Shown: piece after piece, positions 24,442 to 27,375 of the stretch
Position numbering within the stretch: the first letter of the stretch is position 1
Layout: each line of letters starts with the position of its first letter
From: a virus
Virus record (IMG/VR): IMGVR_UViG_3300043466_001330
Span: 1-33,428 of that record
Reading direction: 5' to 3' (one strand)
DNA: 33,428 bases
Translations under genes and position numbers: made by a program
Notes under the pieces: generated by a model
Seen by the model: the letters and a program-made list of their open reading frames with translations, nothing else
The model's database searches: none
What the model was told of the DNA's origin: nothing

Positions 24442-25058
24442 TTGAATTTATTTATTATTGTTACTTCAATAGAACGCCCTAAAGCATCGGCTAAGCTCTG
24501 GGCAAATGTCTCAATGCTTTTTTCGCTTAGAGCATCGTCAATAAAGTGAGTTGGCTCTATACCTTCCCTTTTTATTCCCATCCCAATAGCATATGCCATT
24601 TTGGTTTTTTCGTCTATTTGTTTTTTAGCCCTTGCCGATTTAGTTAAGTTGCGAGTATTTGAATATCTTGACTGAATCGGAATACCCCTTTTAGTTATCC
24701 ACTTTCTAAGTGACTTGTTAAACGCTGGACTAACTGATTCTTTTTTGAATGAGTACGGAGAATTGAACTTGTTTCGTGTACCACTTACCCCTTTATTCAA
24801 AAAGTCACCATAGTAATTCATGTCAATAGCCATTGAAAAAGTAGTTCCATTTGATTCAAGCGGTAAGGTGATAATTGACTGAACCAATTCCGAATCCGCA
24901 TAGTACCCATCCTTTTCGGTTAGGTTTGATTTCATCGCATCGGACAAGCTATTGACAAAACGAATTACTGCCTGCTCAATTAACGAATCAAACTTGGCTG
25001 GCTCGGTTAAGTCAGTGCCTAAGTCGCTCAGTAAGTTAGTGTAGTCTTGTTCCTGCAT
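24438..25058 (-). CDS. HK97 gp10-like tail completion protein
   Basis: 206 aa. N-terminal helix, a beta region, then Lys/Arg-rich linker and the G-I-E-P-T-H-F-I-D-D-A-L ending common to gp10-type head-tail joining proteins (P-x-x-F...A). It overlaps the frameshift product by 23 nt. Assignment rests on this end motif and on position. Confidence 0.6.
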   Translation of the reverse strand: MQEQDYTNLLSDLGTDLTEPAKFDSLIEQAVIRFVNSLSDAMKSNLTEKDGYYADSELVQSIITLPLESNGTTFSMAIDMNYYGDFLNKGVSGTRNKFNSPYSFKKESVSPAFNKSLRKWITKRGIPIQSRYSNTRNLTKSARAKKQIDEKTKMAYAIGMGIKREGIEPTHFIDDALSEKSIETFAQSLADALGRSIEVTIINKFK

Positions 25059-25293
25059 TCTGCCTTTTAATCTCCTCTGTATGGTCTATGTGATAGCTTA
25101 CTACGTTTAAAAATTCTTTTAGCCCTAAGTTAAAAAAGTAATCCCATTTGGTCTTATCATGTCCTGCAAGGTTATCTATTGTCGCAATCCATCCCCACTT
25201 TGTGTTAAAGTTCTGAGCTGGTTCTCCATCGTTTCCGCTTGACTCAGGAAAAAGTTTAGGATATTGTCCGATAATTTGCTTGATAGATTGCAA
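25036..25293 (-). CDS. Tail assembly chaperone T-part, reached by -1 frameshift
   Basis: 85 codons plus stop with no ATG or good ribosome site; the frame begins at a TTG inside the slippery run. It reads W-G-W-I-A-T-I-D-N-L-A-G-H-D-K-T-K-W-D, typical of the second part of tail assembly chaperones. Joined at 25293-25299 to the upstream frame the product is 243 aa, versus 196 aa for the unshifted form. It overlaps the zero frame for 118 nt. A miscounted T-run is the alternative explanation. Confidence 0.72.
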   Translation of the reverse strand: MQSIKQIIGQYPKLFPESSGNDGEPAQNFNTKWGWIATIDNLAGHDKTKWDYFFNLGLKEFLNVVSYHIDHTEEIKRQNAGTRLH

Positions 25294-25766
25294 AAAAAAA
25301 GCATGATAGGGTAAGCATCTTTGATTTTCATTTTATTCAGGAGTAGTTCGCTTATCTCGTCATGTTCATCCCCGTTATACTTTCCTGCCTTTCCAAATCT
25401 CCAGCTTATCGGTCTAACACAACTTGCAACAATTCGGTGTATATTGTCCAATGGATTAGACTTAGCGAAGTGGGTGATGTCAATAAACTGAGCTGAGCTT
25501 ATTTGACTCAATCGGTAATCAACAAAAAACCACTTACCCCCCACCTTTACTTTACTTTTGTAAACTGCCTTAATCGGTTGGGCTTCCAACTTCTCAAAGT
25601 CTGAGTATAGCTCAATTACTTGCGCTGAGGTCATACCATCAAAGAACTCCTTTTCCACCTTAAACAGAATTGAAAGCTTTTGTCTTTTCGCTTCCAAGTC
25701 GTTACCCTTCACTGAGTTTAGCTCAATAAAGTCCTTTAAGGTTAAATTGTAGTAAATGCTTTTCAT
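25176..25766 (-). CDS. Tail assembly chaperone G-part (zero frame)
   Basis: 196 aa. N-terminal three quarters (to about residue 158) is a compact helical protein (T-L-K-D-F-I-E-L, S-I-L-F-K-V-E-K-E-F-F-D-G) with features of the chaperone that coats the tape measure. After the slip site the zero frame continues 38 codons to TGA. It lies just after the terminase and a few genes before the tape measure. Confidence 0.7.
   Translation of the reverse strand: MKSIYYNLTLKDFIELNSVKGNDLEAKRQKLSILFKVEKEFFDGMTSAQVIELYSDFEKLEAQPIKAVYKSKVKVGGKWFFVDYRLSQISSAQFIDITHFAKSNPLDNIHRIVASCVRPISWRFGKAGKYNGDEHDEISELLLNKMKIKDAYPIMLFFCNLSSKLSDNILNFFLSQAETMENQLRTLTQSGDGLRQ
25293..25299 (-). other. Slippery heptamer T_TTT_TTT for -1 frameshift
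   Basis: Run of nine T (25300-25292, minus strand), zero-frame codons CTT TTT TTT TGC. The heptamer 25299-25293 allows both tRNAs to re-pair after a -1 slip, and the new frame opens into the T-part. No strong downstream hairpin or pseudoknot is seen within 40 nt. Confidence 0.68.
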
Positions 25767-25784
25767 TCTATCTAATATATTTTT

Positions 25785-26798
25785 TTAAGCCCTGATTGTA
25801 ACATATTGTCCCCGTCTATGTTCTTGCAGTTTCATTAATGCCAAATAGCGTGTGGCATCAATTAAGTGGTTGTTAAAGTCCACTGGCTCATTGACTATCT
25901 TGCCAGCTTTGTCCGTTTTCCACTTGTACGTTCTGAACTCCTTTTGTAGGTTATTGCCTATCAAGTTAAGTCGGTAACGTCTAAGAATGTCAATTGAGTT
26001 TATAATACTATCCTTACCCTTTTGAGTTGGCTTGATGTTAAAACCTAACCTATACACCTCCTCAATACTTTTCGGTTCGGCACTATCTGCATAAATCTCT
26101 TTCCGAGCTATGCCCATATCCTTTAACCTTTCGGCTATATCTTGATTGGTTAACCCTCTTTCGTAAAGCTCCTCTCTAATGTAAAGTTCCTGCTCATACT
26201 TCCAAACTGAAACAAGTGCAGTTGGATCAGCTGAGAATCCCCAGTCTAACCCGTATCCAACAAAATTGGCGTTATCGGGTACAGTAAGTTGATTTGTCCA
26301 ATTGTTAAAGACTAAGCCCATCAATTGACCCCTTTCCCCTAAACCAAAGATTTTCCAATATTCAGGGTCTGCCTGTTCTAAACTTTCAATCTCTTTTTTA
26401 AGTGCATCGGGCAAGTGTGGATTGTCCTTATAGGTAGTTATAATCAATCCGCAATCGTCACGAGTTAGCACTTGGTCATAAATCCAATGTTCAAAGTCTG
26501 AAGGGTTGTAGTCAATAATAACCTTGCCAGTTGTTCTTAAAAGTAACTGCCTCCAGTCTTCTAAATCAATCTCATTGGCTTCATTCACAAATAGGATGTC
26601 ACGCTTTCTCCCACGAATTTTTTGTGCATCGTCCACGCTAAAAAACTCAATCAAGTTTTTATTTAACTGATAAGTATTTTCTGACTTGTTATGGTCAGCC
26701 TCGTTATAGTAACCGATTGAAGTTAATATCTCTATAAAGTCACGCATTGCAGAGGACTTCAAAGCTGGAAGGGTTTTCCTAACTATTGAAATAGTCAT
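25785..26798 (-). CDS. terL: Terminase large subunit, main fragment (ATPase B motif and nuclease)
   Basis: Frame carries Walker B (D-I-L-F-V-N-E-A-N-E), the coupling motif (T-T-G-K-V-I-I-D-Y-N-P), and the C-terminal RNase H-like nuclease with G-L-D-W-G-F, E-I-Y-A-D-S-A-E and H-L-I-D-A-T-R-Y: Terminase_3 family. The frame continues upstream of the ATG at 26798 through K-T-Y-S-A-L-Q-W-L-I and into Gly-Lys-Thr at about 26845-26855, but then leaves the N-terminal frame. With the disruption repaired, the protein would be about 383-384 aa. As given, ATG 26798 would make a protein without Walker A, probably inactive for packaging. Confidence 0.9.
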   Translation of the reverse strand: MTISIVRKTLPALKSSAMRDFIEILTSIGYYNEADHNKSENTYQLNKNLIEFFSVDDAQKIRGRKRDILFVNEANEIDLEDWRQLLLRTTGKVIIDYNPSDFEHWIYDQVLTRDDCGLIITTYKDNPHLPDALKKEIESLEQADPEYWKIFGLGERGQLMGLVFNNWTNQLTVPDNANFVGYGLDWGFSADPTALVSVWKYEQELYIREELYERGLTNQDIAERLKDMGIARKEIYADSAEPKSIEEVYRLGFNIKPTQKGKDSIINSIDILRRYRLNLIGNNLQKEFRTYKWKTDKAGKIVNEPVDFNNHLIDATRYLALMKLQEHRRGQYVTIRA

Positions 26799-26857
26799 GC
26801 CCTGATGTTTTAGACATAATCGGATAAGCCATTGCAGAGCTGAGTAGGTCTTTCCAG

Positions 26858-26941
26858 TCAGGAACGTGTGCCACCTTGTAAGGCAAGCACACGCTTTGTA
26901 TTTATATTTTTTTCTAAAAAAACGAAGTTAGGGTTAAACAT
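26858..26941 (-). pseudogene. terL: Terminase large subunit, N-terminal fragment, ends inside Walker A
   Basis: 27 codons from ATG 26941-26939 (overlapping the small-subunit stop, TAATG): ending V-L-A-L-Q-G-G-T-R-S then TGA at 26860-26858. The next nucleotides in another frame read G-K-T-Y-S. Removing the five bases 26856-26860 (TGACT on the minus strand) restores G-G-T-R-S-G-K-T, a normal terminase P-loop. Bases 26799-26857 are therefore coding sequence of the broken gene, not a spacer. Confidence 0.82.
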
Positions 26942-27375
26942 TATTCAATTGGTTTGGTTAGCCATTCAGGCAATTTATTGACGTTTATGTTTTGCTCTGT
27001 TTGTACCTTCTCAGTAAGTCCGTTTAGTCGTTGGGTTATGCTCGGATTGTACACCCCAGCTAACCCTCCTTGAATTTGGTCTTCTCTGACCTCTTTGCGT
27101 ATATGCGTGCAGATAGCGACATAGTCAGTGTATCTTTCATCCTTATTTGAAAAATAATGGCTCAAATCGCTTATAATGCCCTTCTTAAATAAATACAATT
27201 CAAAACCCTCAATCGTCAAAGCTCTTTCCCTTTTTTCATAAACTGACTTTCCGTCCTTGCCCACAAAGGTATGTTTCAAAATGGGATTGGCTTTCGCCTC
27301 CTCTCTGTACTTTTCAAAAAGCTCATACATTATCTCTGGGCTTTCTATTGCTTTTGGTTTACCTATTTTTGACAT
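26941..27375 (-). CDS. terS: Terminase small subunit
   Basis: 144 aa. The opening K-I-G-K-P-K-A-I-E-S-P-E, then R-E-R-A-L-T-I-E-G-F-E-L-Y-L-F and H-Y-F-S-N-K-D-E-R-Y match the DNA-packaging small subunit family found in Bacteroidota phages. It binds the pac/cos site and stimulates the large subunit. The stop overlaps the terL start (TAATG), and it overlaps the glycosyltransferase gene by 17 nt. No cos site is identified. Confidence 0.82.
   Translation of the reverse strand: MSKIGKPKAIESPEIMYELFEKYREEAKANPILKHTFVGKDGKSVYEKRERALTIEGFELYLFKKGIISDLSHYFSNKDERYTDYVAICTHIRKEVREDQIQGGLAGVYNPSITQRLNGLTEKVQTEQNINVNKLPEWLTKPIE

Follow-up and report, generated by a model that had tools for sequence, protein, structure and literature searches.

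The large terminase gene (terL) of the viral genome analyzed here is split inside its Walker A motif by a 5-nt insert that begins with an in-frame stop codon. Judged from sequence comparison, the best explanation is probably (at a probability of about 0.8) that this insert belongs to a mobile, endonuclease-associated element over which ribosomes hop. We refer to the whole analyzed stretch, all 33,428 nt of IMG/VR record IMGVR_UViG_3300043466_001330, as the window. Rereading of this sequence confirmed the split described in the original prediction (Table 1): the first frame runs into TGA directly after QGGTRS, and a second frame opens at GGA 26855 with GKTYSALQW and continues for 356 aa. The bases TGACT are the exact separator of S and GKT, and without them terL reads through an ordinary GGTRSGKT P-loop. 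The downstream frame matches the Pfam families Terminase_3 (1e-17) and Terminase_3C (2e-19) and is also assigned to TerL by PHROGs. The contig contains only this one copy of terL, and it looks complete because it carries a terminal direct repeat of 127 bp. A search for a phage tRNA able to read the stop found none. Two open reading frames therefore encode pieces of one essential protein, with an in-frame stop in the gap near the putative take-off codon, as in a programmed bypass.

Table 1. Features of the interrupted terL region, in window coordinates
Feature	Position	Strand	Details
terS, gp3-like small terminase	26941..27375	-	no HNH endonuclease between terS and terL
terL 5' ORF	26858..26941	-	ATG 26941; 27 aa MFNPNFVFLEKNINTKRVLALQGGTRS, QGGTRS at the end, then TGA 26860-26858
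Stem-loop	26863..26895	-	10-bp main stem 26895-26886/26872-26863 plus 4-bp inner stem; -18.2 kcal/mol
Putative take-off codon TCC (Ser)	26861..26863	-	codon abutting the in-frame stop
5-nt insert TGACT	26856..26860	-	TGA 26860-26858; putative landing codon ACT 26858-26856
terL 3' part	25785..26855	-	GKT of Walker A, Walker B, nuclease domain

TerL relatives in IMG/VR, supplemented by two DNA-pattern scans, gave 81 distinct P-loop sequences, of which 48 are uninterrupted and 33 are interrupted within the Walker A codons by inserts of 5 nt (28 sequences), 6 nt (4) or 8 nt (1). The 5-nt inserts read TGACT, TGACG or TGAGT, the 6-nt inserts TGAGCA, TAAGCA or TGATTA, and the 8-nt insert TGAATGGT. 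They occupy one of two positions, either after QGG[T/A]RS or after QGG, and the N-terminal peptide of terL is conserved among the bearers. In all 33 cases an in-frame stop (TGA in 32, TAA in one) opens the insert and abuts the last sense codon. Since such stop-initial inserts, in several variants, recur across many independent contigs and in 33 different terL sequences, we can exclude a sequencing accident or an assembly consensus error, the latter being one of three options offered initially. Homologues that carry the same extra residues in frame, named at the outset as a possible refutation, were not found; even the in-frame 6-nt versions keep the stop. A further claim did not hold: the TTCC and GGAA flanks of the insert are not conserved, as bearers also have TTCA or TTCT upstream and GGC, GGT or GGG downstream, and we rejected this symmetry as a functional stem. 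Among the annotated GenBank relatives examined no interrupted terL was found, the closest being 38-42% identical and intact, and the bacterial genomes searched yielded a single distant match. One candidate bearer (L166) was dismissed as a chance pattern match.

The stem-loop directly upstream of the stop, absent from the original prediction, is separated from it by two unpaired nucleotides (26862-26861). Of the 475 ORF ends in the window, the terL stop was the only one with a strong hairpin (MFE <= -15) ending 1-3 nt upstream, so that no further interrupted gene with this geometry emerged. In bearers, the hairpin forms within the 48 nt preceding the stop. Between its main stem and the stop lie two nucleotides in 14 of 15 distinct bearers and three in the other (L118), and the stem sequences are unrelated between the two insertion-position types. 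Mean MFE values are -18.6 and -23.8 for the two types of bearers versus -6.6 and -5.6 for sequences without an insert, and near relatives without an insert have no such hairpin. A strong hairpin also occurs in one distant uninterrupted terL (L167, 42% identity). Compared to synonymous recodings of the same peptide, bearers reach z-scores of -4.2 to -5.4, versus -1.5 to +0.5 in the uninterrupted relatives tested; 0-1 of 1000 recodings fold as well as the native bearer sequences (0 of 1000 for the window terL). In the stem alignment 95.5% of the cells are paired, and one U-A pair is replaced by C-G through a double change. Rfam contained no match to a known structured RNA or intron. The take-off site is thus accompanied by a conserved 5' stem-loop, a second hallmark of programmed bypassing.

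Among bearers, dN/dS is about 0.1 in the aligned codons of the downstream part and about 0.12 in the 20 upstream codons, compared as stretches of equal length. These ratios indicate that both halves of terL are under purifying selection, and we conclude from them and from the recurrence of the inserts that terL is in all likelihood a live gene and its interruption no artifact of assembly. Together with the hairpin, these observations favor the last of the three initial options, an as yet unknown recoding or bypass event.

How might such a bypass work? While the ribosome stands at TCC and its A site holds TGA, the hairpin that was melted during its passage would refold behind it, pull the mRNA from the exit side and thereby drive the ribosome forward. 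The peptidyl-tRNA would release TCC and land again 5 nt on (at ACT here; 6 or 8 nt on in relatives), and translation would restart at GGA to give an unbroken GGTRSGKT Walker A motif. The fixed spacing may follow from this geometry, since a ribosome that has hopped 5 nt would have the end of the hairpin immediately behind its E-site codon. If the consensus P-loop is taken as the product and landing codons are assigned accordingly, the triplet preceding the point of resumption is similar to the take-off codon. The 5-nt pairs are UCN to ACN (ACT or ACG) and GGY to AGU, with position 2 always shared; the 6-nt pairs are UCN to GCA or UCA to UUA, and the 8-nt pair is GGU to GGU. All short-insert pairs share the middle base except TCA to TTA, in which bases 1 and 3 agree. 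Most 5- and 6-nt variants mismatch one of three landing pairs, and in some the third-position pairing is imperfect (TCA to ACT, TCT to ACG, TCT to GCA). The match is graded: identical in L125, two of three bases or fewer in the 5- and 6-nt variants, and bases 1 and 2 in a class of longer inserts described below.

The genomic surroundings of the inserts point to a mobile element. A gene for a NUMOD4-HNH endonuclease (Pfam NUMOD4 and HNH_3) lies between terS and terL in six contigs, all of them bearers (L004, L024, L053, L069, L070, L155), and ends about 80 nt upstream of the GKT codon. Counting distinct sequences with enough upstream DNA, this gene directly precedes terL in 5 of 31 bearers versus 0 of 39 non-bearers (Fisher p 0.014), a modest association between related sequences that are not independent. 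Most bearers, the window genome included, do not have the endonuclease; in the window it was presumably lost. On a tree built from the part of terL that follows the P-loop, 12 changes of the insert label are needed, with at least 9 of them forced by well-supported branches, and by this tree repeated horizontal movement of the insert is required. Bearers close to the window share a cassette that is 97.8% identical versus 62% identity in terS and 83% in terL. Tree and cassette identity together indicate horizontal movement with co-conversion of flanks, as for a mobile cassette. One bearer (L053) sits within an uninterrupted clade with SRS P-loops, yet its 5' part is of the TRS type, which is the pattern that co-conversion would give. 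We propose that uninterrupted terL genes would be cleaved close to the P-loop by the free-standing endonuclease, that the insert would make this site uncuttable, and that gap repair would copy the insert and its flank into new phages. Such a context explains why a bypass insert should exist in the first place. In L242 and L243, endonuclease relatives adjoin an uninterrupted terL with the Walker A sequence GSRSSKT, which may be a change by which the site escapes cleavage.

Through relatives of the endonuclease we reached a second lineage of terL genes, about 40% identical to the window terL, in which nine contigs carry inserts of 36-41 nt at the same P-loop motif. Here the 5' hairpin stops 1-3 nt short of where the putative take-off codon ends, and a second hairpin lies inside the gap. 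Landing codons share bases 1 and 2 with the take-off codon (TCC to TCA, GCT to GCA, TCG to TCA, GCT to GCT, GGT to GGC). These long inserts span all three frames, a stop abuts the take-off codon in only four of the nine contigs, and six of the nine contain the same endonuclease family. As a separate observation, the gap hairpins of L316, L297, L307, L333 and L364 have recurrent loop sequences (TGAGNAATTG; ATGAATTAAGTAGT), perhaps the remnant of a mobile element. TerL P-loops are a known hotspot for inteins (PMC5050341), and three contigs (L248, L257, L281) appear from VHNS junctions upstream of the GKT codon to contain such P-loop inteins; they also carry relatives of the same HNH family. For the window terL we discarded an intein, as its insert is only 5 nt long.

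Several explanations other than a ribosomal hop deserve consideration. Ordinary -1 frameshifting across the 5-nt inserts, combined with stop readthrough of the 6-nt inserts, would add two residues to the P-loop, and both routes lead through open frames (TCC-CTG-ACT-GGA or TCA-stop-GCA-GGC). However, closely alike cassettes hold TGACT, TAAGCA or TGATTA, so that a single event of either kind cannot serve both lengths and nearly identical cassettes would need different ones. Moreover, the GxxxxGKT spacing of an essential motor would be broken, the long inserts in three frames would be left unexplained, no slippery heptamer is conserved, and the hairpin lies upstream, whereas stimulators of -1 frameshifting are normally found downstream. 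We therefore regard this combination as unlikely. Removal of the insert from RNA or DNA before translation, by a mini-intron or by excision, would also restore the consensus P-loop, and stem-loops do adjoin the insert; nonetheless, the missing Rfam match, the stop that opens all 33 short inserts and the resemblance between take-off and landing codons speak against it. We know of no bacterial system that removes 5-8 nt, and consider this reading quite improbable.

Even less credible is a TerL made as two polypeptides, by termination and then reinitiation at an NTG codon overlapping TGA. Where the stop is TGA, the -1-frame codon at this place is indeed always NTG (ATG, CTG or TTG), but this follows trivially from TGA itself, an in-frame start is missing here in the 6-nt variants, and the P-loop would be divided between two chains. 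Finally, a stop within an essential motif could mark a terL pseudogene or, as initially suggested, contigs from defective phages. The number of distinct bearers, the strong purifying selection on both halves, the conserved hairpin, and an apparently complete window genome without a second terL contradict this suggestion and make it the least probable of all.

A ribosomal hop over a mobile insert has a precedent. To our knowledge, efficient natural bypassing in viruses that infect bacteria amounts to essentially one case, T4 gene 60. According to the model for this gene, a stop follows the take-off codon and a 5' stem-loop that completes behind the ribosome serves as motor (PMC5009743, PMC11194080); its insert and a homing endonuclease are reported to form a mobile cassette (Bonocora 2011). 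The terL inserts resemble the T4 gene 60/mobA system in the stop right after the take-off codon, the 5' stem-loop, the proposed forward skip in an essential phage gene, the neighboring HNH homing endonuclease (in some bearers), and the proposed mobile cassette. In contrast to the 50-nt skip in T4, the short terL inserts span 5-8 nt, their gap contains no hairpin, the putative landing codon would often pair at two of the three positions, and the 5' peptide measures only about 27 aa. In addition, gene 60 encodes a topoisomerase and its bypass belongs to one lineage, whereas terL is interrupted at the P-loop in many lineages. Synthetic +5 and +6 hops over a stop in E. coli (Weiss et al. 1987, cited by PMC10274946 and PMC5009743) are similar in that the P-site tRNA leaves its codon ahead of a stop and lands again 5-6 nt downstream; the terL inserts differ from these constructs by being natural and by having a conserved hairpin. 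The mitochondrial bypass elements of Magnusiomyces capitatus are also short inserts that are skipped with two-of-three landing pairing tolerated, but they reside in yeast mitochondria and are reported to be independent of mRNA context, whereas terL has a fixed hairpin and belongs to bacterial phages. A short bypass proposed previously in the same gene family concerns a sense UUA codon and is tied to host UUA usage; unlike for the terL inserts, no mobile cassette was described. TerL P-loop inteins, in mycobacteriophages and in the three contigs above, use the same hotspot and are linked to homing endonucleases, but they are rescued by protein splicing, the short inserts presumably by the ribosome.

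We found no report of such terL stop-hop inserts in the open-access literature, and a 2016 review knew of no natural in-frame stop hop (PMC5009743). We lean towards viewing the inserts as widespread mobile "translational introns" of bacterial phages, that is, hairpin-driven stop hops of 5-8 nt that tolerate mismatched landing, plus relatives of 36-41 nt at the same site, which hide a homing-endonuclease insert from the gene. If correct, the first natural in-frame stop hops would be among them. Dozens of natural variants in skip length, landing codon, stem sequence and frame constitute a ready experiment on how ribosomes leave and regain frame, and bear on how little signal bypassing needs. Mobile endonucleases would be linked to recoding more generally, and annotation software may take essential phage genes for broken even though they are probably functional.

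Three minor observations concern neighboring or related genes. Two unrelated types of terS, gp3-like and Sf6-like, precede related terL genes (window 26941-27375, L046, L055, L125), which is module swapping. In one contig (L311:3540-3620), a terL adjoining an HNH endonuclease reads CGG-CT-CGT-AGC-GGA, which could be a +5 hop with no stop codon involved. On the minus strand of the window, a run of nine T (CTTTTTTTTTGC, 25292-25300), kept in the relatives checked, lies at the overlap of ORFs 25176-25766 and 25036-25293, which are in different frames, and is probably a second recoding site, acting by frameshift or transcriptional slippage.
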